NCBI RefSeq assembly: GCF_045679555.1
Contig: NC_092087.1
Coordinates: forward strand, 84,241,129-84,305,128
Direction: 5' to 3'
Source: Salvelinus alpinus
Taxonomy: Eukaryota; Chordata; Actinopteri; Salmoniformes; Salmonidae
DNA: 64,000 nt
The position numbers and the translations under genes are program-made. The stretch's first letter is position 1, and each line of letters begins with the position of its first letter. Below the pieces are notes generated by a model. The model saw only the letters and a program-made list of their open reading frames with translations. It was not told the origin of the DNA and made no database searches. Shown one piece after another: positions 2,357 to 48,455 of the stretch.

Positions 2357-3976
<1,620 letters not shown>

Positions 3977-4632: not shown

Positions 4633-4779
4633 ACACACCACCTCTATCTAACTGGTGTAGTGTGGTGTGGGATGATAACACCACCTCTATATAACTGGTC
4701 TAGTGTAGTGTGGGATGATAACACCACCTCTATATAACTGGTCTAGTGTAGTGTGGGATGATAACACCACCTCTATATA
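4633..4779. repeat. 43-bp satellite array, left part
   Basis: These are the first three to four copies of the unit that begins ctatataactggtctagtgt and ends gataacaccacct, before the array is interrupted by a Tc1 element at 4780. The first copy is slightly diverged (ctaactggtgtagtgtggtg). Confidence 0.9.
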
Positions 4780-9300: not shown

Positions 9301-12300
9301 GTGTAGTGTGGGATGATAACACCACCTCTATATAACTGGTCTAGTGTAGTGTGGGATGATAACACCACCTCTACCTAACTGGTCTAGTGTAGTGTGGGAT
9401 TATAACACCACCTCTATCTAACTGGTCTAGTGTAGTGTGGGATGATAACACCACCTCTATCTAACTGGTCTAGTGTAGTGTGGGATTATAACACCACCTC
9501 TATCTAACTGGTCTAGTGTAGTGTGGGATGATTACACCACCTCTACCTAACTGGTCTAGTGTAGTGTGGGATGATAACACCACCTCTACCTAACTGGTCT
9601 AGTGTAGTGTGGGATGATTACACCACCTCTATATAACTGGTCTAGTGTAGTGTGGGATGATAGCACCACCTCTATATAACTGGTCTAGTGTAGTGTGGGA
9701 TGATAACACCACCTCTATATAACTGGTCTAGTTTAGTGTGGGATGATAACACCACCTCTATATAACTGGTCTAGTGTAGTGTGGGATGATAACACCACCT
9801 CTATATAACTGGTCTAGTGTAGTGTGGGATGATAACACCACCTCTATATAACTGGTCTAGTGTAGTGTGGGATGATAGCACAACCTCTATCTAACTGGTC
9901 TAGTGTAGTGTGGGATGATAGCACCACCTCTATCTAACTGGTCTAGTATAGTGTGGGATGATAACACCACCTCTATATAACTGGTCTAGTGTAGTGTGGG
10001 ATGATAGCACCACCTCTATCTAACTGGTCTAATGTAGTGTGGGATGATAACACCACCTCTATATAACTGGTCTAGTGTGGGATGATAACACCACCTCTAT
10101 ATAACTGGTCTAGTGTAGGATGATAACACCACCTCTATATAACTGGTCTAGTGTAGTGTGGGATGATAACACCACCTCTATATAACTGGTCTAGTGTAGT
10201 GTGGGATGATAACACCACCTCTATATAACTGGTCTAGTGTAGTGTGGGATGATAACACCACCTCTATATAACTGGTCTAGTGTAGTGTGGGATGATAACA
10301 CCACCTCTATATAACTGGTGTAGTGTAGTGTGGGATGATAACACCACCTCTATATAACTGGTCTAGTGTAGTGTGGGATGATAACACCGCCTCTATATAA
10401 CTGGTCTAGTGTAGTGTGGGATGATAACACCACCTCTATATAACTGGTCTAGTGTAGTGTGGGATGATAACACCACCTCTATATAACTGGTCTAGTGTAG
10501 TGTGGGATGATAACACCACCTCTATATAACTGGTCTAGTGTAGTGTGGGATGATAACACCACCTCTATATAACTGGTCTAGTGTAGTGTGGGATGATAAC
10601 ACCACCTCTATCTAACTGGTCTAGTGTAGTGTGGGATGATAGCACCACCTCTATATAACTGGTCTAGTGTAGTGTGGGATGATAGCACCACCTCTATCTA
10701 ACTGGTCTAGTGTAGTGTGGGATTATAACACCACCTCTATCTAACTGGTCTAGTGTAGTGTAGGATGATAACACCACCTCTATATAACTGGTCTAGTGTA
10801 GTGTGGGATGATAACACCACCTCTATATAACTGGTCTAGTGTAGTGTGGGATGATAACACCACCTCTACCTAACTGGTCTAGTGTAGTGTGGGATGATAA
10901 CACCACCTCTATATAACTGGTCTAGTGTAGTGTGGGATGGTAACACCACCTCTACCTAACTGGTCTAGTGTAGTGTGGGATGATAACACCACCTCTATCT
11001 AACTGGTCTAGTGTAGTGTGGGATGATAACACCACCTCTATCTAACTGGTCTAGTGTAGTGTGGGATGATAACACCACCTCTACCTAACTGGTCTAGTGT
11101 AGTGTGGGATTATAACACCACCTCTATCTAACTGGTCTAGTGTAGTGTGGGATGATAACACCACCTCTATCTAACTGGTCTAGTGTAGTGTGGGATTATA
11201 ACACCACCTCTATCTAACTGGTCTAGTGTAGTGTGGGATGATTACACCACCTCTACCTAACTGGTCTAGTGTAGTGTGGGATGATAACACCACCTCTACC
11301 TAACTGGTCTAGTGTAGTGTGGGATGATTACACCACCTCTATATAACTGGTCTAGTGTAGTGTGGGATGATAGCACCACCTCTATATAACTGGTCTAGTG
11401 TAGTGTGGGATGATAACACCACCTCTATATAACTGGTCTAGTTTAGTGTGGGATGATAACACCACCTCTATATAACTGGTCTAGTGTAGTGTGGGATGAT
11501 AACACCACCTCTATATAACTGGTCTAGTGTAGTGTGGGATGATAACACCACCTCTATATAACTGGTCTAGTGTAGTGTGGGATGATAGCACAACCTCTAT
11601 CTAACTGGTCTAGTGTAGTGTGGGATGATAGCACCACCTCTATCTAACTGGTCTAGTATAGTGTGGGATGATAACACCACCTCTATATAACTGGTCTAGT
11701 GTAGTGTGGGATGATAGCACCACCTCTATCTAACTGGTCTAATGTAGTGTGGGATGATAACACCACCTCTATATAACTGGTCTAGTGTGGGATGATAACA
11801 CCACCTCTATATAACTGGTCTAGTGTAGGATGATAACACCACCTCTATATAACTGGTCTAGTGTAGTGTGGGATGATAACACCACCTCTATATAACTGGT
11901 CTAGTGTAGTGTGGGATGATAACACCACCTCTATATAACTGGTCTAGTGTAGTGTGGGATGATAACACCACCTCTATATAACTGGTCTAGTGTAGTGTGG
12001 GATGATAACACCACCTCTATATAACTGGTGTAGTGTAGTGTGGGATGATAACACCACCTCTATATAACTGGTCTAGTGTAGTGTGGGATGATAACACCGC
12101 CTCTATATAACTGGTCTAGTGTAGTGTGGGATGATAACACCACCTCTATATAACTGGTCTAGTGTAGTGTGGGATGATAACACCACCTCTATATAACTGG
12201 TCTAGTGTAGTGTGGGATGATAACACCACCTCTATATAACTGGTCTAGTGTAGTGTGGGATGATAACACCACCTCTATATAACTGGTCTAGTGTAGTGTG

Positions 12301-15300
12301 GGATGATAACACCACCTCTATCTAACTGGTCTAGTGTAGTGTGGGATGATAGCACCACCTCTATATAACTGGTCTAGTGTAGTGTGGGATGATAGCACCA
12401 CCTCTATCTAACTGGTCTAGTGTAGTGTGGGATTATAACACCACCTCTATCTAACTGGTCTAGTGTAGTGTAGGATGATAACACCACCTCTATATAACTG
12501 GTCTAGTGTAGTGTGGGATGATAACACCACCTCTATATAACTGGTCTAGTGTAGTGTGGGATGATAACACCACCTCTACCTAACTGGTCTAGTGTAGTGT
12601 GGGATGATAACACCACCTCTATATAACTGGTCTAGTGTAGTGTGGGATGGTAACACCACCTCTACCTAACTGGTCTAGTGTAGTGTGGGATGATAACACC
12701 ACCTCTATCTAACTGGTCTAGTGTAGTGTGGGATGATAACACCACCTCTATCTAACTGGTCTCGTGTAGTGTGGGATGATAACACCACCTCTATATAACT
12801 GGTCTAGTGTAGTGTGGGATGATAACACCACCTCTACCTAACTGGTCTAGTGTAGTGTGGGATGATAACACCACCTCTATCTAACTGGTCTAGTGTAGTG
12901 TGGGATGATAACACCACCTCTATATAACTGGTCTAGTGTAGTGTGGGATGATAACACCATCTCTATATAACTGGTCTAGTGTAGTGTGGGATGATAACAC
13001 GACCTCTATATAACTGGTCTAGTGTAGTGTGGGATGATAACACCACCTCTACCTAACTGGTGTAGTGTGGGATGATGACACCACCTCTACCTAACTGGTC
13101 TAGTGTAGTGTGGGATGATAACACCACCTCTATATAACTGGTCTAGTGTAGTGTGGGATGATAACACCACCTCTATATAACTGGTCTAGTGTAGTGTGGG
13201 ATGATAACACCACCTCTATATAACTGGTCTAGTGTAGTGTAGGATGATAACACCACCTCTATATAACTGGTCTAGTGTAGTGTGGGATGATAGCACCACC
13301 TCTATATAACTGGTCTAGTGTAGTGTGGGATGATAACACCACCTCTATATAACTGGTCTAGTGTAGTGTAGGATGATAACACCACCTCTATCTAACTGGT
13401 CTAGTGTAGTGTGGGATGATAACACCACCTCTATCTAACTGGTCTAGTGTAGTGTGGGATTATAACACCACCTCTATCTAACTGGTCTAGTGTAGTGTGG
13501 GATGATTACACCACCTCTACCTAACTGGTCTAGTGTAGTGTGGGATGATAACACCACCTCTACCTAACTGGTCTAGTGTAGTGTGGGATGATTACACCAC
13601 CTCTATATAACTGGTCTAGTGTAGTGTGGGATGATAGCACCACCTCTATATAACTGGTCTAGTGTAGTGTGGGATGATAACACCACCTCTATATAACTGG
13701 TCTGGTCTAGTGTGGGATGATAACACCACCTCTATATAACTGGTCTAGTGTAGTGTGGGATGATAACACCACCTCTATATAACTGGTCTAGTGTAGTGTG
13801 GGATGATAACACCACCTCTATATAACTGGTCTAGTGTAGTGTGGGATGATAACACCACCTCTATCTAACTGGTCTAGTGTAGTGTGGGATGATAACACCA
13901 CCTCTATATAACTGGTCTAGTGTAGTGTGGGATGATAACACCACCTCTATCTAACTGGTGTAGTGTAGTGTGGGATGATAACACCACCTCTATCTAACTG
14001 GTCTAGTGTAGTGTGGGATGATAACACCACCTCTATATAACTGGTCTAGTGTAGTGTGGGATGATAACACCACCTCTATATAACTGGTTTAGTGTAGTGT
14101 GGGATGATTACACAATCTCTTTATAACTAGTCTAGTGTAGTGTGGGATGATAACACCACCTCTATCTAACTGGTCTAGTGTGGGATGATAACACCACCTC
14201 TATATAACTGGTCTAGTGTAGTGTGGGATGATAACACCACCTCTATCTAACTGGTCTAGTGTAGTGTGGGATGATAACACCACCTCTATCTAACTGGTCT
14301 AGTGTAGTGTGGGATGATAGCACCACCTCTATCTAACTGGTCTAGTGTAGTGTGGGATGATAACACCACCTCTATATAACTGGTCTAGTGTAGTGTGGGA
14401 TGATAACACCACCTCTATATAACTGGTCTAGTGTAGTGTGGGATGATAACACCACCTCTACCTAACTGGTCTAGTGTAGTGTGGGATGATAACTCCACCT
14501 CTATCTAACTGGTCTAGTGTAGTGTAGGATGATAACACCACCTCTATATAACTGGTCTAGTGTAGTGTGGGATGATAACACCACTATCTAACTGGTGTAG
14601 TGTGGGATGATAGCACCACCTCTATATAACTGGTCTAGTGTAGTGTGGGATGATAACACCACCTCTATATAACTGGTGTAGTGTAGTGTGGGATGATAAC
14701 ACCACCTCTATCTAACTGGTCTAGTGTAGTGTGGGATGATAACACCACCTCTATCTAACTGGTCTAGTGTAGTGTGGGATGATAACACCACCTCTATCTA
14801 ACTGGTCTAGTGTAGTGTAGGATGATAACACCACAGCTACCTAACTGGTCTAGTGTAGTGTGGGATGATAACACCACCTCTATATAACTGGTCTAGTGTA
14901 GTGTGGGATGATAACACCACCTCTATCTAACTGGTCTAGTGTAGTGTGGGATGATAACACCACCTCTATATAACTGGTCTAGTGTAGTGTAGGATGATAA
15001 CACCACCTCTATATAACTGGTCTAGTGTAGTGTAGGATGATAACACCACCTCTACCTAACTGGTCTAGTGTAGTGTGGGATGATAACACCACCTCTATAT
15101 AACTGGTCTAGTGTAGTGTAGGATGATAACACCACCTCTACCTAACTGGTCTAGTGTAGTGTGGGATGATAACACCACCTCTATATAACTGGTCTAGTGT
15201 AGTGTGGGATGATAACACCACCTCTACCTAACTGGTCTAGTGTAGTGTGGGATGATTACACCACCTCTATATAACTGGTCTAGTGTAGTGTGGGATGATA

Positions 15301-18300
15301 GCACCACCTCTATATAACTGGTCTAGTGTAGTGTGGGATGATAACACCACCTCTATATAACTGGTCTGGTCTAGTGTGGGATGATAACACCACCTCTATA
15401 TAACTGGTCTAGTGTAGTGTGGGATGATAACACCACCTCTATATAACTGGTCTAGTGTAGTGTGGGATGATAACACCACCTCTATATAACTGGTCTAGTG
15501 TAGTGTGGGATGATAACACCACCTCTATCTAACTGGTCTAGTGTAGTGTGGGATGATAACACCACCTCTATATAACTGGTCTAGTGTAGTGTGGGATGAT
15601 AACACCACCTCTATCTAACTGGTGTAGTGTAGTGTGGGATGATAACACCACCTCTATCTAACTGGTCTAGTGTAGTGTGGGATGATAACACCACCTCTAT
15701 ATAACTGGTCTAGTGTAGTGTGGGATGATAACACCACCTCTATATAACTGGTGTAGTGTAGTGTGGGATGATAACACCACCTCTATATAACTGGTGTAGT
15801 GTAGTGTGGGATGATAGCACCACCTCTATATAACTGGTTTAGTGTAGTGTGGGATGATTACACAATCTCTTTATAACTAGTCTAGTGTAGTGTGGGATGA
15901 TAACACCACCTCTATCTAACTGGTCTAGTGTGGGATGATAACACCACCTCTATATAACTGGTCTAGTGTAGTGTGGGATGATAACACCACCTCTATCTAA
16001 CTGGTCTAGTGTAGTGTGGGATGATAACACCACCTCTATCTAACTGGTCTAGTGTAGTGTGGGATGATAGCACCACCTCTATCTAACTGGTCTAGTGTAG
16101 TGTGGGATGATAACACCACCTCTATATAACTGGTCTAGTGTAGTGTGGGATGATAACACCACCTCTATATAACTGGTCTAGTGTAGTGTGGGATGATAAC
16201 ACCACCTCTACCTAACTGGTCTAGTGTAGTGTGGGATGATAACTCCACCTCTATCTAACTGGTCTAGTGTAGTGTAGGATGATAACACCACCTCTATATA
16301 ACTGGTCTAGTGTAGTGTGGGATGATAACACCACTATCTAACTGGTGTAGTGTGGGATGATAGCACCACCTCTATATAACTGGTCTAGTGTAGTGTGGGA
16401 TGATAACACCACCTCTATATAACTGGTGTAGTGTAGTGTGGGATGATAACACCACCTCTATCTAACTGGTCTAGTGTAGTGTGGGATGATAACACCACCT
16501 CTATCTAACTGGTCTAGTGTAGTGTGGGATGATAACACCACCTCTATCTAACTGGTCTAGTGTAGTGTAGGATGATAACACCACCTCTACCTAACTGGTC
16601 TAGTGTAGTGTGGGATGATAACACCACCTCTATCTAACTGGGCTAGTGTAGTGTGGGATGATAACACCACCTCTATATAACTGGTCTAGTGTAGTGTGGG
16701 ATGATAACACCACCTCTATATAACTGGTCTAGTGTAGTGTGGGATGATAGCACCACCTCTACCTAGCTGGGCTAGTGTAGTGTGGGATGATAACACCACC
16801 TCTATATAACTGGTCTAGTGTAGTGTGGGATGATAACACCACCTCTATCTAACTGATCTACTGTAGTGTGGGATGATAACACCACCTCTATCTAACTGGT
16901 CTAGTGTAGTGTGGGATGATTACACCACCTCTATATAACTGGTCTAGTGTAGTGTGGGATGATAACACCACCTCTATCTAACTGGTCTAGTGTAGTGTGG
17001 GATGATAACACCACCTCTATATAACTGGTCTAGTGTAGTGTAGGATGATAACACCACCTCTATATAACTGATCTAGTGTAGTGTGGGATGATAACACCAC
17101 CTCTATATAACTGGTCTAGTGTAGTGTGGGATGATAACACCACCTCTATATAACTGGTCTAGTGTAGTGTGGGATGATTACACCACCTCTATATAACTGG
17201 GCTAGTGTAGTGTGGGATGATAACACCACCTCTATCTAACTGGTCTAGTGTAGTGTGGGATGATTACACCACCTCTATATAACTGGTCTAGTGTAGTGTG
17301 GGATGATAACACCACCTCTATCTAACTGGTCTAGTGTAGTGTGGGATGATAACACCACCTCTATATAACTGGTCTAGTGTAGTGTGGGATGATAACACCA
17401 CCTCTATCTAACTGGTCTAGTGTAGTGTGGGATGATAACACCACCTCTATATAACTGGTCTAGTGTAGTGTGGGATGATAACACCACCTCTATCTAACTG
17501 GTCTAGTGTAGTTTGGGATGATAGCACCACCTCTATATAACTGGTCTAGTGTAGTGTGGGATGATAACACCACCTCTATCTAACTGGTCTAGTGTAGTGT
17601 GGGATGATAGCACAACCTCTATCTAACTGGTCTAGTGTAGTGTGGGATGATAGCACCACCTCTATATAACTGGTCTAGTGTAGTGTGGGATGATAACACC
17701 ACCTCTATATAACTGGTCTAGTGTAGTGTGGAATGATAGCACCACCTCTATATAACTGGTCTAGTGTGGGATGATAACACCACCTCTATATAACTGGTCT
17801 AGTGTAGTGTGGGATGATAACACCACCTCTATATAACTGGTCTAGTGTAGTGTGGGATGATAACACCACCTCTATCTAACTGGTCTAGTGTAGTGTGGGA
17901 TGATAGCACCACCTCTATCTAACTGGTCTAGTGTGGGATGATAACACCACCTCTATATAACTGGTCTAGTGTAGTGTGGGCTGATAACACCACCTCTATA
18001 TAACTGGTCTAGTGTAGTGTGGGATGATAACACCACCTCTATATAACTGGTGTAGTGTAGTGTGGGATGATAACACCACCTCTATATAACTGGTCTAGTG
18101 TAGTGTGGGATGATAACACCACCTCTATATAACTGGTCTAGTGTAGTGTGGGATGATAACACCACCTCTATATAACTGGTCTAGTGTGGGATGATAACAC
18201 CACCTCTATCTAACTGGTCTAGTGTAGTGTGGGATGATTACACCACCTCTATATAACTGGTCTAGTGTAGTGTGGGATGATAACACCACCTCTATATAAC

Positions 18301-18320
18301 TGGTGTAATGTAGTGTGTGT
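6386..18320. repeat. Large 43-bp satellite array
   Basis: About 11.9 kb of head-to-tail copies of a 43-bp unit containing ggtctagtgtagtgtgggat and gataacaccacct. Variants alternate ctatataact, ctatctaact and ctacctaact, and ataac or atagc. Short units lacking 5 or 10 bp (ggtctagtgtaggatg, ggtctagtgtgggatg) occur at regular places and mark higher-order repeats: 1538 bp (markers at 6801, 8339 and 9877), 1710 bp (9877 and 11587) and 1750 bp (14111 and 15861). With the part left of the Tc1 element the array has about 280 units. It contains no ORF above 60 codons. Confidence 0.97.
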
Positions 18321-27472: not shown

Positions 27473-27676
27473 CTAGGAATGTTATGATATCAAGGCGGCC
27501 ATTTTACATGAAAAACAACTATAGTCCTGTGACTCCTGGAGGAAGTACTTAAGGACCGATGCAGATATCTTGGGGTTGAAAGTTAAAGCGTAACAGTAAC
27601 ACGTAGTTGTGATTGTGAGTGCTGTAGCCTCAAACAAGTCCGTCAAATGATTGAGTGAATTATAGTAATGATGTTG

Positions 27677-28876
27677 ATGTGAACATACTGTCGGTTGGAG
27701 CCTGGATGCTCCCATCATGGTGTTGTGAACATACTGTCGGTTAGAGCCTGGATGCTCCCATCATGGGGTTGTGAACATACTGTCGGTTGGAGCCTGGATG
27801 CTCCCATCATGGTGTTGTGAACATACTGTCGGTTGGAGCCTGGATGCTCCCATCATGGTGTGGTGAACATACTGTCGGTTGGAGCCTGGATGCTCCCATC
27901 ATGGTGTTGTGAACATACTGTCGGTTGGTGCCTGGATGCTCCCATCATGGTGTTGTGAACATACTGTCGGTTAGAGCCTGGATGCTCCCATCATGGTGTT
28001 GTGAACATACTGTCGGTTAGAGCCTGGATGCTCCCATCATGGTGTTGTGAACATACTGTCGGTTGGAGCCTGGATGCTCCCATCATGGTGTTGTGAACAT
28101 ACTGTCGGTTGGAGCCTGGATGCTCCCATCATGGTGTTGTGAACATACTGTCGGTTGGTGCCTGGATGCTCCCATCATGGTGTTGTGAACATACTGTCGG
28201 TTGGAGCCTGGATGCTCCCATCATGGTGTTGTGAACATACTGTTGGTTGGTGCCTGGATGCTCCCATCATGGTGTTGTGAACATACTGTCGGTTGGAGCC
28301 TGGATGCTCCCATCATGGTGTTGTGAACATACTGTCGGTTGGAGCCTGGATGCTCCCATCATGGTGTTGTGAACATACTGTCGGTTAGAGCCTGGATGCT
28401 CCCATCATGTTGTTGTGAACATACTGTCGGTTGGTGCCTGGATGCTCCCATCATGGTGTTGTGAACATACTGTCGGTTGGTGCCTGGATGCTCCCATCAT
28501 GGTGTTGTGAACATACTGTCGGTTGGAGCCTGGATGCTCCCATCATGGTGTGGTGAACATACTGTCGGTTGGAGCCTGGATGCTCCCATCATGTTGATGT
28601 GAACATACTGTCGGTTGGAGCCTGGATGCTCCCATCATGGGGTTGTGAACATACTGTCGGTTGGAGCCTGGATGCTCCCATCATGGTGTTGTGAACATAC
28701 TGTCGGTTGGAGCCTGGATGCTCCCATCATGGTGTTGTGAACATACTGTCGGTTGGAGCCTGGATGCTCCCATCATGTTGTTGTGAACATACTGTCGGTT
28801 GGAGCCTGGATGCTCCCATCATGGTGTTGTGAACATACTGTCGGTTGGAGCCTGGATGCTCCCATCATAGTGTGGT
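27677..28876. repeat. 46-bp minisatellite
   Basis: About 26 tandem copies of a 46-bp unit reading tgttgtgaacatactgtcgg, then ttggagcctggatgctccca, then tcatgg. The piece gagcctggatgctc is a small palindrome, so every copy could form a short hairpin. Variant positions (ttggag/ttagag/ttggtg) are scattered over the array. Confidence 0.96.
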
Positions 28877-29039
28877 GAAGCTGATTGAGATGTACAGGCT
28901 GTATTGGGCACCGAGCCCATCCCCCCTCACTCTCTTTCTCTCTCTGTCTGTGTAATCTCAATCTGCCTGCTCTGCTACTACTCATCTCCCTGTTTTAATT
29001 AGCCTCTCTCTCTGCAGTCTGCACTCATTCTGTACAGAG

Positions 29040-29382: not shown

Positions 29383-31764
29383 TTACAATGGTGTTTGTTC
29401 TTCACTGGTTGCCCTTTTCTTGTGGCAACAGGTCACAAATCTTGCTGCTGTGATGGCACACTGTGGAATTTCTCCCAGTAGATATGGGAGTTTATCAAAA
29501 TTGGATTTGTTTTCAAATTCTTTGTGGATCTGTGTAATCTGAGGGAAATATGTCTCTCTAATATGGTCATACATTGGGCAGGAGGTTAGAAAGTGCAGCT
29601 CAGTTTCCACCTCATTTTGTGGGCAGTGTGCACATAGCCTGTCTTCTCTTGAGAGCCATGTCTGCCTACGGCGGCCTTTCTCAATAGCAAGGCTATGCTC
29701 ACTGAGTCTGTACATAGTCAAAGCTTTCCTTAAGTTTGGGTCAGTCACAGTGGTCAGGTATTCTGCCACTGTGTACTCTCTGTTTAGGGCCAAATAGCAT
29801 TCTAGTTTGCTCTGTTTTTTTGTTAATTCTTTCCAATGTGTCAAGTAATTATCTTTTTGTTTTCTCATGATTTGGTTGGGTCTAATTGTGCTGTTGTCCT
29901 GGGGCTCTGTGGGGTGTGTTTGTGTTTGTGAACAGAGCCCTAGGACCAGCTTGCTTAGGGGACTCTTCTCCAGGTTCATCTCTCTGTAGGTGATGGCTTT
30001 GTTATGGAAGGTTTGGGAATCGCTTCCTTTTAGGTGGTTGTAGAATTTAACGGCTCTTTTCTGGATTTTGATAATTAGTGGGTATCGGCCTAATTCTGCT
30101 CTGCATGCATTATTTGGTGTTCTACGTTGTACACGGAGGATATTTTTGCAGAATTCTGCATGCAGAGTCTCAATTTGGTGTTTGTCCCATTTTGTGAAAT
30201 CTTGGTTGGTGAGCGGACCCCAGACCTCACAACCATAAAGGGCAATGGGCTCTATGACTGATTCAAGTATTTTTAGCCAGATCCTAATTGGTATGTTGAA
30301 ATTTATGTTCCTTTTGATGGCATAGAAGGCCCTTCTTGCCTTGTCTCTCAGATCGTTCACAGCTTTGTGGAAGTTACCTGTGGTGCTGATGTTTAGGCCG
30401 AGGTATGTATAGTTTTTTGTGTGCTCTAGGGCAACGGTGTCTAGATGGAATTTGTGGTCCTGGTGACTGGACCTTTTTTGGAACACCATTATTTTGGTCT
30501 TACTGAGATTTACTGTCAGGGCCCAGGTCTGACAGAATCTGTGCAGAAGATCTAGGTGCTGCTGTAGGCCCTCCTTGGTTGGTGACAGAAGCACCAGATC
30601 ATCAGCAAACAGTAGACATTTGACTTCGGATTCTAGTAGGGTGAGACCGGGTGCTGCAGACTGTTCTAGTGCCCGCGCCAATTCGTTGATATATATGTTG
30701 AAGAGGGTGGGGCTTAAGCTGCATCCCTGTCTCACCCCACGACCCTGTGTGAAGAAATGTGTGTGTTTTTTGCCAATTTTAACCGCACACTTGTTGTTTG
30801 TGTACATGGATTTTATAATGTCGTATGTTTTACCCCCAACACCACTTTCCATCAATTTGTATAGCAGACCCTCATGCCAAATTGAGTCGAAGGCTTTTTT
30901 GAAATCAACAAAGCATGAGAAGACTTTGCCTTTGTTTTGGTTTGTTTGGTTGTCAATTAGGGTGTGTAGGGTGAATACATGGTCTGTTGTACGGTAATTT
31001 GGTAAAAAGCCAATTTGACATTTGCTCAGTACATTGTTTTCATTGAGGAAATGTACGAGTCTGCTGTTAATGATAATGCAGAGGATTTTCCCAAGGTTAC
31101 TGTTGACGCATATTCCACGGTAGTTATTGGGGTCAAATTTGTCTCCACTTTTGTGGATTGGGGTGATCAGTCCTTGGTTCCAAATATTGGGGAAGATGCC
31201 AGAGCTAAGGACGATGTTAAAGAGTTTTAGTATAGCCAATTGGAATTTGTTGTCTGTATATTTGATCATTTCATTAAGGATACCATCAACACCACAGGCC
31301 TTTTTGGGTGGGAGGGTTTTTATTTTGTCCTGTAACTCATTCAAGGTAATTGGAGAATCCAATGGGTTCTGGTAGTCTTTAATAGTTGATTCTCGGATTT
31401 GTATTTGATCATGTATATGTTTTTGTTCTTTATTCTTTGTTATAGAGCCAAAAAGATTGGAGAAGTGGTTTACCCATACATCTCCATTTTGGATAGATAA
31501 TTCTTCGTGTTGTTGTTTGTTTAGTGTTTTCCAATTTTCCCAGAATTGGTTAGAGTCTATGGAGTCTTCAATTACATTGAGCTGATTTCTGACGTGCTGT
31601 TCCTTCTTTTTCCGTAGTGTATTTCTGTATTGTTTTAGTGATTCGCCATAGTGAAGGCGTAGACTCAGGTTTTCCGGGTCTCTATGTTTTTGGTTGGACA
31701 GGTTCCTCAATTTATTTCTTAGATTTTTGCATTCTTTATCAAACCATTTGTCATTGTTGTTCAT
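29383..31764 (-). CDS. LINE reverse transcriptase region (793 codons)
   Basis: The open frame starts at MNNNDKWFDKECKNLRNKL and has no internal stop. Reverse transcriptase motifs appear in order: FVDFKKAFDS (block A, about residues 285-294), GRGVRQGCSLSPTLFNIYIN (about 342-361) and the catalytic LLFADDLVLLS (FADD near 386-389). A C-terminal Cys-His cluster, CAHC ... ELHFLTSC with MYDHIR, lies near residues 710-736. An uninterrupted frame of this length suggests a fairly recent insertion. The product would copy the element's RNA at a nicked target. Upstream sequence belongs to the same polyprotein but is in another frame, so this is probably the downstream part of a frameshifted ORF2. Confidence 0.9.
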   Translation of the reverse strand: MNNNDKWFDKECKNLRNKLRNLSNQKHRDPENLSLRLHYGESLKQYRNTLRKKKEQHVRNQLNVIEDSIDSNQFWENWKTLNKQQHEELSIQNGDVWVNHFSNLFGSITKNKEQKHIHDQIQIRESTIKDYQNPLDSPITLNELQDKIKTLPPKKACGVDGILNEMIKYTDNKFQLAILKLFNIVLSSGIFPNIWNQGLITPIHKSGDKFDPNNYRGICVNSNLGKILCIIINSRLVHFLNENNVLSKCQIGFLPNYRTTDHVFTLHTLIDNQTNQNKGKVFSCFVDFKKAFDSIWHEGLLYKLMESGVGGKTYDIIKSMYTNNKCAVKIGKKHTHFFTQGRGVRQGCSLSPTLFNIYINELARALEQSAAPGLTLLESEVKCLLFADDLVLLSPTKEGLQQHLDLLHRFCQTWALTVNLSKTKIMVFQKRSSHQDHKFHLDTVALEHTKNYTYLGLNISTTGNFHKAVNDLRDKARRAFYAIKRNINFNIPIRIWLKILESVIEPIALYGCEVWGPLTNQDFTKWDKHQIETLHAEFCKNILRVQRRTPNNACRAELGRYPLIIKIQKRAVKFYNHLKGSDSQTFHNKAITYREMNLEKSPLSKLVLGLCSQTQTHPTEPQDNSTIRPNQIMRKQKDNYLTHWKELTKKQSKLECYLALNREYTVAEYLTTVTDPNLRKALTMYRLSEHSLAIEKGRRRQTWLSREDRLCAHCPQNEVETELHFLTSCPMYDHIRETYFPQITQIHKEFENKSNFDKLPYLLGEIPQCAITAARFVTCCHKKRATSEEQTPL

Positions 31765-31777
31765 TTTCTTCGGTTTT

Positions 31778-32857
31778 CTATTTGAGATTTTTTAGATTTG
31801 ATAGGGAAGCTGAGAGGTCAAATATACTGTTAAGATTTTCTACTGCCAAGTTTACACCTTCACTATTGCAGTGGAACATTTTACCCAGGAAGTTGTCTAA
31901 AAGGGATTGAATTTGCTGTTGCCTAATTGTTTTTTGGTAGGTTTCCAAACTGCATTCCTTCCATCTATAGCATTTCTTAATGTTACTCAGTTCCTTTGGC
32001 TTTGATGCCTCATGATTGAGTATTGCTCTGTTCAAGTAGACTGTGATTTTGCTGTGGTCTGATAGGGGTGTCAGTGGGCTGACTGTGAACGCTCTGAGAG
32101 ACTCTGGGTTGAGGTCAGTGATAAAGTAGTCTACAGTGCTACTGCCAAGAGATGAGCTATAGGTGTACCTACCATAGGAGTCCCCTCGAAGCCTACCATT
32201 GACTATGTACATACCCAGCGTGCGACAGAGCTGCAGGAGTTGTGACCCGTTTTTGTTGGTTATGTTGTCATAGTTGTGCCTAGGGGGGCATATGGGGGAG
32301 AGAATGCTGTCACCTGCAGGCAGGTGTTTGTCCCCCTGTGTGCTGAGGGTGTCAGGTTCTTGTCCAGTTCTGGCATTTAGGTCGCCACAGACTAATACAT
32401 GTCCCTGGGCCTGGAAATGATTGATTTCCCCCTCCAGGATGGAGAAGCTGTCTTTATTAAAGTATGGGGATTCTAGTGGGGGGATATAGGTAGCACACAG
32501 GAGGACATTTTTCTCTGTTAAGATAATTTCCTTTTGAATTTCTAGCCAAATGTAAAATGTTCCTGTTTTGATTAATTTAATGGAGTGAGTTAGGTCTGCT
32601 CTATACCAAATTAGCATTCCCCCTGAGTCCCTTCCCTGTTTCACACCTGGTAGTTTGGTGGATGGGACTACCAGCTCTCTGTAACCTAGAGGGCAACCAG
32701 TGGGTCCGTCTCCGCTATACCATGTTTCTTGCAGGATGACAATGTCTGCATTACCGATTTCTTTGGTGAAGTCCGTGTTCCTGCTCTTTAGGCCAAAGGC
32801 AGATGACCTCAGGCCTTGGATATTCCAGGATGATATAGTGAAGGCTTTTTGTTCCAT
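31778..32857 (-). CDS. LINE AP-endonuclease domain (359 codons)
   Basis: The reading starts at MEQKAFTISSWNIQGL (ATG at 32855-32857) and stops with TAG at 31778. Exo-endo-phosphatase motifs are visible: SSWNIQGL, VILQETW (catalytic Glu), GDLNAR and LSDHSKI near the C-terminal part. The domain would nick target DNA for priming. The stop falls 14 bases before the reverse transcriptase ATG, which lies in another frame. A six-A run (ctaaaaaatc, minus strand) just before the stop is a plausible site of a small indel that split one ORF2. The open frame continues upstream to 33049, but the ATG at 32857 matches the family's usual start. Confidence 0.85.
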   Translation of the reverse strand: MEQKAFTISSWNIQGLRSSAFGLKSRNTDFTKEIGNADIVILQETWYSGDGPTGCPLGYRELVVPSTKLPGVKQGRDSGGMLIWYRADLTHSIKLIKTGTFYIWLEIQKEIILTEKNVLLCATYIPPLESPYFNKDSFSILEGEINHFQAQGHVLVCGDLNARTGQEPDTLSTQGDKHLPAGDSILSPICPPRHNYDNITNKNGSQLLQLCRTLGMYIVNGRLRGDSYGRYTYSSSLGSSTVDYFITDLNPESLRAFTVSPLTPLSDHSKITVYLNRAILNHEASKPKELSNIKKCYRWKECSLETYQKTIRQQQIQSLLDNFLGKMFHCNSEGVNLAVENLNSIFDLSASLSNLKNLK

Positions 32858-32892
32858 AAAGTGTCCAATGTTGTTGGCCGTGTGGTTTGGCC

Positions 32893-33348
32893 TCAGGCCA
32901 GTAAGTGTGAGCAGAGCCTGCTGAGCATCTGGTACATGCCGTTGGCTTGGGCGAGTGTAAGAGTGGGGGTTGGGCCTGTTTGCCCGCTCACTACCTGGGC
33001 GTATGTGTGACTTCCATGTTGATCCTCTCTTTGCAGGGGTGGGGTGCATGGGGTGGGCAGGAGTGGCATAGGTCTGATCTGAGGGGGCCTAAATGGGGTG
33101 TGGGCATGGTTGATGTGGGGGGGTGTTGATTGGTTGGGGTGGGGGTGTGGATGTGTCTGGGGGTGCTGTGGTCTGGATGTAAGTCCTCTTGGCGTGGGTC
33201 CTCTATGTGTAGGTCCACGGGGGGGTCCTGCAGGTCTTGGAGGGTGTCTCGCTGGTCTGGGTGGGGTGTTCTCAATCTCTCTCCTTCTCACTCTCTTTCC
33301 CTCATCTCTCTCTCCTGTTCCGTCTTGCAGTGAGTGCACACTGTGCAA
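32893..33348 (-). CDS. ORF1-like proline-rich leader ORF of the LINE (tentative)
   Basis: This is a 151-codon ORF rich in Pro, His, Arg and Thr, ending 35 bases before the endonuclease ATG. The segment HTYAQVVSGQ near its end resembles a short motif common in ORF1 of fish LINEs. No zinc knuckle or coiled coil is visible. It may be a truncated ORF1 or a chance ORF in a GC-rich leader. Confidence 0.45.
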   Translation of the reverse strand: MHSVHSLQDGTGERDEGKRVRRREIENTPPRPARHPPRPAGPPRGPTHRGPTPRGLTSRPQHPQTHPHPHPNQSTPPHINHAHTPFRPPQIRPMPLLPTPCTPPLQREDQHGSHTYAQVVSGQTGPTPTLTLAQANGMYQMLSRLCSHLLA

Positions 33349-37426: not shown

Positions 37427-37815
37427 TGTAACGATCGTCGTAATGTGGAAGAGAGGAGGACCAAATCGCAGCGTGGTATGTATCCATATTTATTTGAATA
37501 CTCTTCAATACGAACAAAACAATAAACAGAACGAAACCAACGACGCTACAGTCCTGAACATGTGAACATAGAAAAAACAATGAACGCACGAACAGGAACA
37601 ATCACCCACAAAACAAACAGTGAAAACAGCCTACCTTAATATGGTTCCCAATCAGAGACAACGTAAAACACCTGCCTCTGATTGAGAACCATATCAGGCC
37701 AATAAGACACACCTAAACCAATGAAACACAAAACATAGAATATACCCACCCAGTTCACGTCCTGACCAACTAAACAAAGACTAAACAAAGGAAATATAAG
37801 GTCAGGAACGTGACA
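37427..37815. mobile_element. Solo LTR of a gypsy-like or TRIM-like element
   Basis: The segment begins tgtaacgatcgtcg and ends caggaacgtgaca, i.e. TG...CA ends, and is flanked by the 5-bp duplication tcatt (37422-37426 and 37816-37820). It resembles the LTRs at 39740 and 42907 in both ends and in the piece atggttcccaatcagagaca (versus atggctctcaatcagagaca), but is clearly a different subfamily. No internal region is present, so recombination between two LTRs is the likely origin. Confidence 0.85.
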
Positions 37816-39416: not shown

Positions 39417-39739
39417 TTATTTATGTAACCTTTATTTCACTAGGCAAGTCAGTTAAGAACAAATTCTTATTTACAATGACGGCCTACACCCTGGCCAAAC
39501 CCGGACGACGCTGGGCCAACTGTGCACCGCCCTATGGGACTCCCAATCACGGCCGGTTGTGATACAGCCTGGAATATAGTTAGAACCAGGGTCTGTAGTG
39601 ACTCCTCTACCACTGAGATGCAGTGCCTCAGACCGCTGAACCAGGGTCTGTAGTGACTCCTCTACCACTGAGATGCAGTGCCTCAGACCGCTGAACCAGG
39701 GTCTGTAGTGACTCCTCTACCACTGAGATGCAGTGCCTC
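39417..39739 (-). repeat. Salmonid tRNA-derived SINE, left part, with expanded head
   Basis: On the minus strand this is a SINE whose tail (tttatgtaacctttatttca and aagaacaaattcttatttac) and core (cggacgacgctgggccaact) lie at 39417-39580. The tRNA-like head follows, with the B-box-like gaaccagggtc. The head is tandemly repeated with a period of 55 bp (gtctgtagtg at 39591, 39646 and 39701). The array continues at 43341 after the LTR element. Confidence 0.85.
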
Positions 39740-40173
39740 TGTCACGATCGTCCTGAGGATAATGAGTGGACCAAGGCGCAGCGTGTGAAAAATACATTCT
39801 CTTTTATTAGAGATGAGTGAAACACGAAAACGAACACTTAAAACAAAACTAAACAAAACAACAAACGACCGTGAAGCTACAAACGTAAGTGCAATACAAA
39901 AGCTACAAACGTTCTACATAGACAATTACCCACAAAACCCAATGCCTATGGCTGCCTTAAATATGGCTCTCAATCAGAGACAATGAACCACAGCTGCCTC
40001 TAATTGAGAACCAATCTAGGCAGCCATAGACATACAAACACCTAGACAAGACACTGACCCATTTAACATACAAAACCCCTAGACAATCCAAAAACACATA
40101 CATTCCCCATGTCACACCCTGACCTAACTAAAATAATAAAGAAAACAAAGATAACTAAGGCCAGGGCGTGACA
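39740..40173 (-). repeat. LTR (3' LTR in element orientation)
   Basis: Starts tgtcacgatcgtcctgagga and ends ccagggcgtgaca on the plus strand. It matches the other LTR except at about four positions, among them gacaagacactg versus gacaagtaactg. Confidence 0.93.
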
Positions 40174-40254
40174 GTACCCCCCCCCCCCCCCCCAAAGGTG
40201 CGGACTCCGGCCGCAAAACCTGACACAGAAGGGGAGGGTCAGGGGTGGGCCTTC

Positions 40255-42771
40255 TTATGGCGGCGGCTCGGGTGCGGGACGTGGCCCCCACTCCACCATT
40301 GTCAATACCCGCTTTGGTGGCTCTGGTAGATCCTGGCTGACTGGCGGCTCTTTAAGATCCTGGCTGGTTGGCGGCTCTGGCAGATCCTGGCTGACTGGCG
40401 GCTCTGGCAGATTCTGGCTGATTGGCGGCTCTGGCAGATCCTGGCTGATTGGCGGTTCTGGCAGATCCTGGCTGATTGGCGGCTCTGGCAGATCCTGGCT
40501 GACTGGCGGCTCTGGCAGATCCAGGCTGACTGGCGGCTCTGGCAGATCCTGGCTGACTGGCGGCTCTGGCAGATCCTGGCTGGCTGGCGGCTCTGGCAGA
40601 TCCTGGCTGATTGGCGGCTCTGGCAGATCCTGGCTGATTGGCGGTTCTGGCAGATCCTGGCTGATTGGCGGCTCTGGCAGATCCTGGCTGACTGGCGGCT
40701 CTGGCAGATCCTGGCTGACTGGCGGCTCTGGCAGATCCTGGCTGGCTGGCGGCTCTGGCTGGTCATGGCTGGATGACGGCTCTGGCCGATCCTGGCTGAT
40801 TGGCGGCTCTGGCAGATCATGGCTGGCTGACGGCTCTGGCTGGTCATGGCTGGCTGACGGCTCTGGCTGGTCATGGCTGGCTGACGGCTCTGGCAGATCA
40901 TGGCTGGCGGAAGGCTCTGGCTGCTCATGGCTGGCGGATGGCTCTGGCTGCTCATGGCTGGATGACGGCTCTGGCTGCTCATGGCTGGATGACGGCTCTG
41001 GCTGCTCATGGCTGGATGACGGCTCTGGCTGGTCATGGCTGGATGACGGCTCTGGCTGGTCATGGCTGGATGACGGCTCTGGCTGGTCATGGCTGGATGA
41101 CGGCTCTGGCTGGTCATGGCTGGATGACGGCTCTGGCTGCTCATGGCTGGATGACGGCTCTGGCTGGTCATGGCTGGATGACGGCTCTGGCTGGTCATGG
41201 CTGGATGACGGCTCTGGCTGGTCATGGCTGGATGACGGCTCTGGCTGGTCATGGCTGGATGACGGCTCTGGCTGGTCATGGCTGGATGACGGCTCTGGCT
41301 GGTCATGACTGGATGACGGCTCTGGCTGCTCATGGCTGGCTGGCGACTCTGGCTGCTCATGGCTGGCTGGCGACTCTGGCTGCTCATGGCTGGCTGGCGA
41401 CTCTGGCTGCTCATGGCTGGCTGGCGGCTCTGGCTGCTCATGGCTGGCTGACGGCTCTGGCTGCTCCTGTCTGGCGGAAGGCTCTGGCTGCTCCTGTCTG
41501 GCGGAAGGCTCTGGCTGCTCCTGTCTGGCGGAAGGCTCTGGCTGCTCCTGTCTGGCGGAAGGCTCTAGCGGCTCCTGTCTGGCGGACGGCTCTAGCGGCT
41601 CCTGTCTGGCGGACGGCTCTGAAGGCTTAGGACAGACGGGCGGCTTTGAAGGCTCAGGACAGACGGGCGGCTTTGAAGGCTCAGTACAGACGGGCGGCTT
41701 TGAAGGCTCAGGACAGACGGGCGGCTTTGAAGGCTCAGGACAGACGGGCGGCTTTGAAGGCTCAGGACAGACGGGCAGTTCAGGCGGCGCTTGGCAGACG
41801 AACAGCTCAGACGGCGTTGGGCAGACGGGCAGTTCAGGCGCCGCTGGGCAGACGGCAGACTCTGGCCGGCTGAGGCGCACTGTAGGCCTGGTGCGTGGTG
41901 CCGGAACTGGTGGTACCGGGCTGGGGACACGCACCTGAAGGCTAGTGCGGGGAGAAGGAACAGGGCATACTGGACCCTGGAGACGTACATTAGGCCTAGT
42001 GCGTGGTGCCGGCACTGGTGGTACCGGGCTGGGGACACGCATCTCAGGGCTAGTGCGGGGAGCAGCAACAGGACGCACAGGACTCTGGAGACGCACAGGA
42101 GGCTTGGTGCGTGGTGCCGGAACTGGTGGTACCGGGCTGGAGACACGCACCATAGGGCGAGTGCGTGGAGGAGGAACAGGGCTCTGGAGACACACTGGAA
42201 GCCTGGTGCGTGGTGTAGGCACTGGTGGTACTGGGCTGGGGCGGGGAGGTGGCGCCGGAAATACCGGACCGTGCAGGCATACTGGCTCCCTTGAGCACTG
42301 AGCCTGCCCAACCTTACCTGGTTGTATGCTCCCCGTAGCCCGACCAGTGCGGGGAGGTGGAATAACCCGCACTGGGCTGTGTAGGCGAACCGGGGACACC
42401 ATGCTTAAGGCTGGTGCCATGTATGCCGGCCCGAGGAGACGCACTGGAGGCCAGATGCATTGGGCCGGCTTCATGACATCCGGCTCAATACTCAATCTAG
42501 CCCTGCCAGTGCGGGGAGGTGGAATAACCTGCACCGGGCTATGCACACGTACAGGAGACACTGTGCGCTCTACCGCATAACACGGTGTCTGCCCGAACTT
42601 TCGCGCTCCACGCTCGGGGAGTTGGCGCAGGTCTCCTACCTGACTTCGCCACACTCCCTTGTAGCCCCCCCCCAAGAAATGTTTGGGTTTTACTCTCGGG
42701 CTTCCAGCCTTGCTTCCGTGCTGCCTCCTCATATCGCCTCCTCTCGGCTTTAGCTGCCTCCAGCTCTTCAT
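40255..42771 (-). CDS. Proline-rich repeat ORF inside the LTR element (838 codons)
   Basis: One stop-free frame starts at MKSWRQLKPRGG and ends EWGPRPAPEPPP. The C-terminal two-thirds consist of 9-residue (27-bp) repeats in successive blocks: EPSKPPVCP (about 41625-41770), QPEPSARQE (about 41440-41600), QPEPSSSHD and relatives (about 40760-41440) and LPEPPVSQD (about 40310-40760). The N-terminal third has longer degenerate Pro-Arg-Val units (SPVPPVPAPRT). No enzymatic domain is visible. The ORF shares the segment FLGGG with the upstream ORF at 42539-42964 across a C9 run (42665-42673), which suggests a single frame split by a homopolymer indel. Function unknown: a structural Gag-like role, or drift of a captured gene, are both guesses. 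Confidence 0.6.
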   Translation of the reverse strand: MKSWRQLKPRGGDMRRQHGSKAGSPRVKPKHFLGGGYKGVWRSQVGDLRQLPERGARKFGQTPCYAVERTVSPVRVHSPVQVIPPPRTGRARLSIEPDVMKPAQCIWPPVRLLGPAYMAPALSMVSPVRLHSPVRVIPPPRTGRATGSIQPGKVGQAQCSREPVCLHGPVFPAPPPRPSPVPPVPTPRTRLPVCLQSPVPPPRTRPMVRVSSPVPPVPAPRTKPPVRLQSPVRPVAAPRTSPEMRVPSPVPPVPAPRTRPNVRLQGPVCPVPSPRTSLQVRVPSPVPPVPAPRTRPTVRLSRPESAVCPAAPELPVCPTPSELFVCQAPPELPVCPEPSKPPVCPEPSKPPVCPEPSKPPVCTEPSKPPVCPEPSKPPVCPKPSEPSARQEPLEPSARQEPLEPSARQEQPEPSARQEQPEPSARQEQPEPSARQEQPEPSASHEQPEPPASHEQPESPASHEQPESPASHEQPESPASHEQPEPSSSHDQPEPSSSHDQPEPSSSHDQPEPSSSHDQPEPSSSHDQPEPSSSHDQPEPSSSHEQPEPSSSHDQPEPSSSHDQPEPSSSHDQPEPSSSHDQPEPSSSHEQPEPSSSHEQPEPSSSHEQPEPSASHEQPEPSASHDLPEPSASHDQPEPSASHDQPEPSASHDLPEPPISQDRPEPSSSHDQPEPPASQDLPEPPVSQDLPEPPVSQDLPEPPISQDLPEPPISQDLPEPPISQDLPEPPASQDLPEPPVSQDLPEPPVSLDLPEPPVSQDLPEPPISQDLPEPPISQDLPEPPISQNLPEPPVSQDLPEPPTSQDLKEPPVSQDLPEPPKRVLTMVEWGPRPAPEPPP

Positions 42772-42964
42772 GAGGGAGGCGATATTCTCCCAGTTGAGTC
42801 CAAGGTCCCTTACCTTCCAGTATCTCCTCCCAAGTCCAAGAATCCTTTATGCGCTGCTCCTGCTGCTGCTTAACACGCTGCTTGGTCCCGTTCTGGTGGG
42901 TAATTCTGTCACGATCGTCCTGAGGATAATGAGTGGACCAAGGCGCAGCGTGTGAAAAATACAT
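42674..42964 (-). CDS. Upstream part of the LTR-element ORF (charged segment)
   Basis: This minus-strand frame starts inside the 5' LTR (MYFSHAAPW) and runs into the internal region. Its residues include QRVKQQQEQRIKDSWTWEEI and HEELEAAKAERRRYEEAARK, which look like a short Trp-containing motif followed by a charged helix. At the C9 run near 42670 the likely coding continuation shifts to the 838-codon frame. Beyond 42665 this frame appears non-coding. The real start codon is uncertain, because the first codons lie in the LTR. Confidence 0.5.
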
Positions 42965-43340
42965 TCTCTTTTATTAGAGATGAGTGAAACACGAAAACGA
43001 ACACTTAAAACAAAACTAAACAAAACAACAAACGACCGTGAAGCTACAAACGTAAGTGCAATACAAAAGCTACAAACGTTCTACATAGACAATTACCCAC
43101 AAAACCCAATGCCTATGGCTGCCTTAAATATGGCTCTCAATCAGAGACAATGAACCACAGCTGCCTCTAATTGAGAACCAATCTAGGCAGCCATAGACAT
43201 ACAAACACCTAGACAAGTAACTGACCCATTTAACATACAAAACCCCTAGACAATCCAGAAACACATACATTCCCCATGTCACAACCTGACCTAACTAAAA
43301 TAATAAAGAAAACAAAGATAACTAAGGCCAGGGCGTGACA
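42907..43340 (-). repeat. LTR (5' LTR in element orientation)
   Basis: Same length (434 bp) and ends as the copy at 39740. In element orientation it begins tgtcacgccctggcc and would carry the promoter. Confidence 0.93.
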
Positions 43341-43575
43341 GCCTCAGACCGCTGAACCAGGGTCTGTAGTGACTCCTCTACCACTGAGATGCAGTGCCTC
43401 AGACCGCTGAACCAGGGTCTGTAGTGACTCCTCTAGCGCTGAGATGCAGTGCCTCAGACCGCTGAACCAGGGTCTGTAGTGACTCCTCTAGCGCTGAGAT
43501 GCAGTGCCTCAGACCGCTGAACCAGGGTCTGTAGTGACTCCTCTAGCGCTGAGATGCAGTGCCTCAGACCGCTCG
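43341..43575 (-). repeat. Right part of the SINE with expanded tRNA-like head
   Basis: Four further 55-bp units (gtctgtagtg at 43366, 43421, 43476 and 43531) are followed by cagaccgctcgggagc, the normal outer end of the SINE. A change from ctaccac to ctagcgc separates the outer units from the inner ones. Confidence 0.85.
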
Positions 43576-46356: not shown

Positions 46357-46380
46357 TGAGTGAGTGAGTGAGTGAGTGAG
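46318..46380. repeat. GA and GAGT simple repeats bordering the 40-bp array
   Basis: A (GA)n run followed by gagtgagtgagtgagtgag leads directly into the minisatellite. Confidence 0.9.
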
Positions 46381-48455
46381 TACAGAGGGGATGTGGTAAT
46401 ACAGTGGTAATGTTTACATGTACAGAGTGGATGTGGTAATACGGTGGTAATGTTTACATGTACAGAGTGGATGTGGTAATATAGTGGTAATGTTTATATG
46501 TACAGAGGGGATGTGGTAATACGGTGGTAATGTTTACATGTACAGAGGGGATGTGGTAATACAGTGGTAATGTTTATAAGTACAGAGTGGATGTGGTAAT
46601 ACGGTGGTAATGTTTACATGTACAGAGTGGATGTGGTAATACGGTGGTAATGTTTACATGTACAGAGGGGATGTGGTAATACAGTGGTAATGTTTACATG
46701 TACAGAGTGGATGTGGTAATACGGTGGTAATGTTTACATGTACAGAGGGGATGTGGTAATACGGTGGTAATGTTTACATGTACAGAGTGGATGTGGTAAT
46801 ACAGTGGTAATGTTTACATGTACAGAGTGGATGTGGTAATACGGTGGTAATGTTTACATGTACAGAGGGGATGTGGTAATACAGTGGTAATGTTTACATG
46901 TACAGAGGGGATGTGGTAATACGGTGGTAATGTTTACATGTACAGAGTGGATGTGGTAATACAGTGGTAATGTTTACATGTACAGAGTGGATGTGGTAAT
47001 ACAGTGGTAATGTTTATATGCACAGAGTGGATGTGGTAATACGGTGGTAATGTTTACATGTACAGAGGGGATGTGGTAATACAGTGGTAATGTTTACATG
47101 TACAGAGTGGATGTGGTAATACAGTGGTAATGTTTACATGTACAGAGTGGATGTGGTAATACGGTGGTAATGTTTACATGTACAGAGTGGATGTGGTAAT
47201 ACAGTGGTAATGTTTATATGTACAGAGTGGATGTGGTAATACGGTGGTAATGTTTACATGTACAGAGGGGATGTGGTAATACAGTGGTAATGTTTACATG
47301 TACAGAGGGGATGTGGTAATACGGTGGTAATGTTTATATGTACAGAGTGGATGTGGTAATACGGTGGTAATGTTTACATGTACAGAGGGGATGTGGTAAT
47401 ACAGTGGTAATGTTTACATGTACAGAGTGGATGTGGTAATACAGTGGTAATGTTTACATGCACAGAGTGGATGTGGTAATACGGTGGTAATGTTTACATG
47501 TACAGAGGGGATGTGGTAATACAGTGGTAATGTTTACATGTACAGAGTGGATGTGGTAATACAGTGGTAATGTTTACATGTACAGAGTGGATGTGGTAAT
47601 ACAGTGGTAATGTTTATAAGTACAGAGTGGATGTGGTAATACTGTGGTAATGTTTACATGTACAGAGTGGATGTGGTAATACGGTGGTAATGTTTATATG
47701 TACAGAGTGGATGTGGTAATACAGTGGTAATGTTTATATGTACAGAGTGGATGTGGTAATACGGTGGTAATGTTTACATGTACAGAGGGGATGTGGTAAT
47801 ACGGTGGTAATGTTTACATGTACAGAGTGGATGTGGTAATACGGTGGTAATGTTTACATGTAGAGAGGGGATGAGGTAATACAGTGGTAATGTTTACATG
47901 TACAGAGTGGATGTGGTAATACGGTGGTAATGTTTACATGTACAGAGTGGATGTGGTAATACAGTGGTAATGTTTACACGTACAGAGTGGATGTGGTAAT
48001 ACAGTGGTAATGTTTACATGTACAGAGTGGATGTGGTAATACGGTGGTAATGTTTACATGTACAGAGTGGATGTGGTAATACGGTGGTAATGTTTATATG
48101 TACAGAGTGGATGTGGCAATACGGTGGTAATGTTTACATGTACAGAGTGGATGTGGTAATACAGTGGTAATGTTTACACGTACAGAGTGGATGTGGTAGT
48201 ATGGTGGTAATGTTTACATGTACAGAGTGGATGTGGTAATACGGTGGTAATGTTTACATGTACAGAGTGGATGTGGTAATACAGTGGTAATGTTTACATG
48301 TACAGAGTGGATGTGGTAATACGGTGGTAATGTTTACATGTACAGAGTGGATGTGGTAATAGGGTGGTAATGTTTACATGTACAGAGTGGATGTGGTAAT
48401 ACGGTGGTAATGTTTACATGTACAGAGGGGATGTGGTAATACGGTGGTAATGTTT
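46381..48455. repeat. 40-bp minisatellite in c1qtnf1 intron 1
   Basis: About 52 head-to-tail copies of tacagagtggatgtggtaat then acggtggtaatgtttacatg. Units differ only by substitutions (gagtgg/gagggg, acggtg/acagtg, tacatg/tatatg). The phase is unchanged from 46381 to 48421, i.e. 51 units of exactly 40 bp with no net insertion or deletion. Confidence 0.97.

Follow-up and report, generated by a model that had tools for sequence, protein, structure and literature searches.

A high-copy long terminal repeat retrotransposon of Salvelinus alpinus with a putative self-priming RNA and a possible protein of its own

How is a retrotransposon without a recognisable polymerase copied, and does it make a protein? 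Both questions are raised by an element in a 64,000-nt stretch of the Salvelinus alpinus genome (NC_092087.1, positions 84,241,129 to 84,305,128, forward strand; hereafter the window). It spans positions 43340 to 39740, with its sense on the minus strand, and consists of a 434-bp 5′ long terminal repeat (LTR), a 2,733-bp interior and a 434-bp 3′ LTR. The original prediction described it as a young non-autonomous LTR element whose proline-rich frame of more than 800 codons might be a captured host gene or an unusual protein of the element's own, and this description held in most structural respects. The LTRs, said to be about 99% alike, are identical at 430 of 434 positions in a gap-free alignment and have the termini TGTCACG...CGTGACA; GCCTC stands on both flanks as the predicted 5-bp target-site duplication; the 17-bp purine run lies within TTT-G17-TAC immediately upstream of the 3′ LTR; and the long frame is present on the minus strand (Table 1). 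The claimed lack of reverse transcriptase, protease and integrase agrees with the two long frames, neither of which has a Pfam match at E up to 1, and a scan of the window for Rfam families gave no match. Our analysis makes it probable that the element, a young copy, belongs to a non-autonomous LTR retrotransposon of high copy number that primes itself, is moved in trans and still encodes a protein. What this adds to the earlier description is the complementarity and covariation of the predicted RNA end and the primer site, set within a U5 stem, and the start of the frame at an ATG within the LTR.

A putative self-priming RNA

Relatives of the element were sought in the source genome of the window (2.37 Gb, 928 contigs). 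The LTR search listed 41 matches (4,710 first-look candidates, 40 scored), 40 of them at 94-100% identity and one a short piece at 77%. Twenty regions around LTR matches were fetched, which together with the window copy gave nine copies with two recognisable LTRs. Their interiors measure 1.8-2.7 kb and are built of the same parts, and a 5-bp target duplication flanks seven of the nine. It is absent at L010, which has another G run and TAC before it, as in a tandem arrangement, and at L020, whose LTR is truncated. Divergence between the two LTRs of a copy ranges from 0 to 2.55%, so several copies are young, as had been supposed for the window copy.

The primer site, AAT[T/C]ACCCACC, adjoins the LTR; the varying base is G in L053 only. 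Its complement, GTGGGT[A/G]ATT, occurs 162-275 nt before the end of the same LTR and is referred to as the R motif. We compared the two in 43 distinct LTR/primer-site junctions, which had been chosen by the exact primer-site pattern with a 6-nt spacer. Among the 35 that carry an exact R motif, T in the primer site goes with A in R in 25 and C with G in eight, so that 33 are Watson-Crick at the varying position; the remaining two are a G-U wobble in L046, whose LTR looks like that of another family, and a mismatch in L053 (Fisher p 5e-7 for 34 junctions, L053 left out). Of the eight junctions outside this count, four are T-type with the motif altered or absent, and the other four, out of 12 C-type loci, had no more than about 240 nt of upstream sequence available.

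In 28 of the 35 junctions a TATA-like box begins 30 or 31 nt before the R motif; in seven C-type loci the box as defined is missing. Because of this spacing of about 30 nt, transcription is expected to start at the R motif, and the first ~10 nt of the RNA would then match the primer site. The C-type sites themselves were found through a prediction: a related solo LTR of another family in the window, 65% identical to the element LTR over 314 columns and with the same termini, ending CGTTACA, carries GTGGGTGATT at its predicted RNA start. Genome-wide, the exact pattern recovered 649 T-type and 1,082 C-type primer sites, 1,731 in all, and reversed-pattern controls recovered none. In genome-wide searches that allowed spacers of 3-9 nt, C-type sites had spacers of 6 nt and T-type sites of 6 or 3 nt, as read by eye in the first 100 places listed for each type; a looser junction pattern likewise gave 6-nt spacers only.

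Around the primer site the RNA is predicted to fold into a U5 stem, with a mean of -29.6 kcal/mol in the 43 junctions vs -17.9 (standard deviation 3.8) for shuffles. Two of its nine pairs covary, the observed pairing being reached by 0 and 2 of 2,000 shuffles; the ninth pair shows no covariation (653/2,000), and pairs 1-5 and 7 are nearly invariant. A stem resembling the U5 inverted repeat (U5-IR) is reportedly, by the title of one study, required for self-priming. With a complementary predicted RNA end and a U5 stem both found, the two features expected of a self-primed RNA are present. Priming by transfer RNA (tRNA) was rejected: a primer site for a tRNA 3′ end would begin TGG, which this one does not, and the window holds no tRNA gene. 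Self-priming by a U5 segment had been suspected at first and was dropped, that segment being an arm of the stem and not the predicted RNA end. A long hairpin is also predicted at positions 43109-43200 of the 5′ LTR, with an inner stem and 16-nt arms that are 94% complementary; the TATA-like box sits in its 3′ half, and the solo LTR has a similar one.

A reading frame that begins in the LTR

The charged segment, which the original prediction placed in the interior in a frame separate from the proline-rich part, does occupy a frame of its own in the window copy (143 aa, 42970-42539, minus strand), but this frame extends beyond the interior into the LTR, as far as an ATG there. An in-frame ATG within the LTR is found in 41 of the 43 junctions, 17-28 codons before the LTR end, a position kept although U5 differs strongly among LTR families. 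The change of frame had been placed at the C9 run (G9 on the sense strand), which turned out to be incorrect. In L013 and L010 the charged and proline-rich parts form a single frame from the LTR junction to a C-terminal VEWG.RPAPE motif, with 741 and 669 codons to the stop, respectively, and L013 shares the G9 run with the window copy yet stays in one frame. In the 657-nt stretch after the run the window copy is 5 nt shorter than L013, which shifts its charged frame so that it ends at codon 122.

Selection on the N-terminal domain (N-domain) was assessed from the ratio of nonsynonymous to synonymous variation (pN/pS), which is 0.41 for 29 loci and 0.43 for nine representatives (bootstrap 0.33-0.58). 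The other 12 of the 41 loci with an ATG lie outside this set since their frame falls short of the G[WR]KP motif; in the short loci among them the available stretch ends before it or an earlier stop intervenes. Across 28 loci, 24 of 63 N-domain variants are synonymous in the coding frame (p 0.013), compared with 12/63 and 18/63 in the others. A similar excess is seen in the proximal 657 nt of the proline-rich part (26 loci at different places), where 87 of 217 variants are synonymous against an expectation of ~30% (p 0.0015) and the other two frames show none (56/215 and 47/204). These comparisons covered the three frames of the sense strand, and the variants are non-independent, which makes the p values rough. 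From these sequence comparisons we are fairly confident that the N-domain has been under selection as a protein, and the tail perhaps too, with moderate support.

There are two N-domain types, with 61% identity across a stretch in which the common LTR-coded part is counted, and they yielded 9,906 and 3,554 first-look candidates. The type of L014, L019 and L020 differs from that of the rest in elements otherwise similar, and N-terminal modules therefore seem to have been exchanged between families. Among the best 150 N-domain matches, an open frame of 400 codons or more is present in 58 (one of them an assembly gap) and one below 200 codons in 85; a stop was read by eye in eight of the 150. A frame of 2,456 codons (L059) that looked like an autonomous relative was rejected, as it runs through N, an assembly gap within its repeat array. 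In both loci fetched for C-type primer sites, the proline-rich frame behind the site stays open for the 601 nt covered; in one of them (L073) an opposite-strand frame is open as well. A three-member N-domain alignment searched against PDB and Pfam gave no match, and a structure predicted for the N-terminal 97 residues from one sequence suggests helices, at a confidence too poor for a fold search (predicted local distance difference test 64, predicted template modelling score 0.26).

Weighing the explanations

A number of results count against a selected protein or against self-priming. Primer-site covariation rests mainly on two lineages, and a first, cruder stem test, in which 80 nt of U5 were set against 60-nt pieces of the window, was not significant: 541 of 3,258 pieces did as well or better (416 of 3,258 for the solo LTR). 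Only L010 and L013 among the nine two-LTR copies are open end to end. Of the eight copies measured, the window copy, L009, L011, L012, L014 and L020 are not, while L022, the remaining one, has no primer site left and no frame that spans its interior. A net frameshift falls within the 657-nt stretch in eight of 26 loci, and the G run preserves the frame in 15 of 31 (p 0.06 vs one third). As 20 of the 29 loci in the pN/pS set came from a protein-similarity search, pN is lowered there. The LTR-coded part alone, at pN/pS 0.64 (29 loci) or 0.73 (representatives, bootstrap 0.48-1.15), is indistinguishable from neutral and not clearly constrained, and its conserved HAA.WS and TK.R codons share sequence with the RNA stem. 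Third-position excess was looked for in a 47-codon piece beside the repeats and none was found, and stop-creating variants are not depleted in the 657-nt stretch (3/217 vs ~2% expected). Lastly, of the 150 best integrase and 150 best Gag matches genome-wide, 36 lie on the assembly parts labelled C1-C2 (the window is on C2), and none of them turned up in the 15 kb following any of the 167 exact primer sites on these parts. The autonomous partner that the original prediction proposed to find by LTR and primer-site similarity thus did not appear among these matches; it may have a lower score, a place on other parts of the assembly or a divergent primer site, or it may have died out. With the queries used, no relatives were found in phages, plasmids, viral contigs or bacterial and archaeal genomes.

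Much of this would be expected if the element primes itself and the long frame is a by-product of triplet-length repeats, the RNA stem and recombination, with no protein that matters, an explanation we consider unlikely. Over the repeat arrays other frames are open too, of 420 and 270 aa in sense orientation and of 378 and 276 aa in antisense, so frame length alone is not evidence of function; the frame described as kept open is indeed long, and much of its open length is mechanical, from the 27-bp repeats. The broken copies, the G run that toggles the frame, the missing third-position excess and the undepleted stops point the same way. The broken copies had been named as grounds for refutation; the count, with seven of nine copies broken and two open, goes part of the way but does not settle coding, because individual insertions will be disrupted even where an element codes for a protein. 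What a by-product would leave unexplained is the recurrence of an LTR-borne ATG in the right frame, the restriction of spacers to 6 or 3 nt among the places listed, the N-domain pN/pS and a synonymous excess confined to one same-strand frame. It is quite unlikely, in our estimate, that the element arose by internal deletion from an autonomous Ty3/gypsy element, of the Tf1/sushi V-clade or Gmr type, whose own Gag began with the charged domain. Its LTR ends fit both the rGmr1 integrase motif (TGTNANR...CGTNACA) and the sushi motif (PMC3601003), and self-priming is a Tf1/sushi trait (PMC6317226); there is, however, no Pfam match to Gag, and the 150 best matches per N-domain type include no frame of Gag-Pol size, the longest having 1,006 codons apart from the gap-spanning one. 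Capture of a host gene is very improbable. The protein has no match in Pfam or PDB, as might suit a captured gene, but in 27 of 30 loci fetched from the best 150 N-domain matches listed in the source genome the LTR-coded peptide lies directly upstream, by eye, and no host donor was seen; a frame beginning inside LTRs of quite different sequence is also unexpected for a captured gene. Of the original interpretation, then, the class of element stands, the unusual protein of its own gains moderate support from the LTR ATG, the N-domain pN/pS and the synonymous excess in one frame, and the host gene finds no support.

We return to the preferred reading, a self-priming element that is moved in trans and still encodes a protein. 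Transcription would start at GTGGGTAATT, about 30 nt past the TATA-like box in the 5′ LTR. In the folded RNA the U5 stem would hold the primer site in a loop, with which the RNA's own first ~10 nt could pair, and a reverse transcriptase presumably supplied in trans would cut off and extend this self-primer, as in yeast Tf1. Copying into the capped end of the primer may account for the invariant extra C after CCCAC and, through the addition of untemplated bases, for the hypervariable spacer. Translation would begin at the ATG in U5, pass through the primer site into the charged domain of ~77 residues and then cross the length-variable G run into the long proline-rich repeat tail. Selection has probably maintained the charged domain in active lineages. 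Its likeliest role, which we propose with low confidence, is akin to that of a minimal accessory Gag and would be to assist the element's RNA during assembly or packaging of particles.

Like terminal-repeat retrotransposons in miniature (TRIMs) and large retrotransposon derivatives (LARDs), which are held to have no coding capacity, the element has LTRs, a primer site and a purine run and lacks pol; unlike them it contains an extended frame that shows traces of selection, though often broken. TR-GAG elements of plants are likewise non-autonomous LTR elements with one protein gene, whereas no Gag domain is found by Pfam here. The LTR termini agree with the Gmr1-type motif (PMC3601003), but the sushi motif fits as well, and the element has no pol in which the Gmr1-type order of integrase before reverse transcriptase could appear. 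In Tf1 the RNA 5′ end is complementary to the primer site, according to PMC7175516; the element resembles Tf1/sushi in this, at its predicted start, and in its U5-IR-like stem, and differs in lacking gag-pol and in having a frame that opens within the LTR and continues across the primer site. None of the titles and opening lines of abstracts listed in searches on salmonid and salmon LTR elements describes the family, and neither its peptide strings nor its DNA strings turned up in the papers searched, which included few from subscription journals; it may well be catalogued as a repeat in Repbase or Dfam.

The locus and what the element would mean

Table 1. Positions of the element's features and of a related solo LTR in the window.
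Feature	Position	Strand	Remark
5′ LTR, TGTCACG...CGTGACA	42907..43340	-	434 bp, 430/434 identical to 3′ LTR
3′ LTR	39740..40173	-	434 bp
Target-site duplication GCCTC, left copy	39735..39739	.	flank sequence
Target-site duplication GCCTC, right copy	43341..43345	.	flank sequence
TATA-like box TATTTAAG	43123..43130	-	30 nt before predicted RNA start
Predicted RNA 5′ end and self-primer GTGGGTAATT, start of R	43091..43100	-	covaries with primer site
Poly(A) signal AATAAA	42970..42975	-	in 5′ LTR sequence
ATG inside LTR, start of charged frame	42962..42964	-	in-frame ATG in 41/43 distinct junctions
U5 arm of stem ACACGCTGCGCCTTGGTCC	42935..42953	-	
Primer-binding site AATTACCCAC	42896..42905	-	complementary to 43091-43100
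Hypervariable 6-nt spacer after primer site	42889..42894	-	21 different spacers in 43 junctions
Internal arm of U5 stem GGACCAAGCAGCGTGT	42873..42888	-	
Charged N-terminal domain, 77 codons	42674..42904	-	continuous with LTR-coded start
G9 run between N-domain and proline-rich part	42665..42673	-	length 5-15 among 31 loci
Proline-rich frame, 863 codons stop to stop	40255..42846	-	open reading frame list
54/108-bp repeat part of proline-rich region	41872..42241	-	tandem repeat search
27-bp repeat arrays, 9-residue units	40319..41855	-	tandem repeat search
G17 run, candidate polypurine primer for plus-strand DNA	40177..40193	-	putative role
Related solo LTR, other family	37427..37815	-	AATGA on both flanks; GTGGGTGATT in place of GTGGGTAATT

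The element is inserted within a 55-bp tandem array (39583-39739 and 43341-43573), whose sequence resembles repeated pieces of a short interspersed element. Elsewhere the window is rich in repeats: a 12-kb array holds ~280 copies of a 43-bp unit (6386-18317, and 4635-4779), and there are other long minisatellites, such as those at 46380-48455 (40 bp) and 27671-28879 (46 bp). On the minus strand at 29386-33088 lies an element resembling long interspersed elements, whose stop-to-stop frames of 802 and 436 aa overlap by 11 nt and match reverse transcriptase (PF00078, E 2.4e-41) and exonuclease/endonuclease (PF03372, E 4.6e-14). A fragment with the helix-turn-helix of a Tc3-type transposase is found at 2872-3369 on the plus strand (PF01498, E 1e-10).

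Non-autonomous LTR elements are usually seen as signal-only RNAs. A broader reading, which we offer tentatively as a possibility, is that of a vertebrate superfamily without gag or pol that owes its survival to an otherwise unknown protein of its own, read from an ATG in the LTR through the self-priming site, and swaps its N-terminal modules: a retroelement parasite with a private accessory or packaging protein. If this is true, the retention of a frame across the LTR and the primer site, in a superfamily with 1,731 exact primer sites in one genome, would reflect selection for a protein belonging to the parasite itself. Through the covariation of RNA end and primer site, self-priming in a vertebrate would become open to tests on sequence and on the ends of complementary DNA, and the hypervariable spacer might preserve a legible record of reverse transcriptase finishing at a capped primer.

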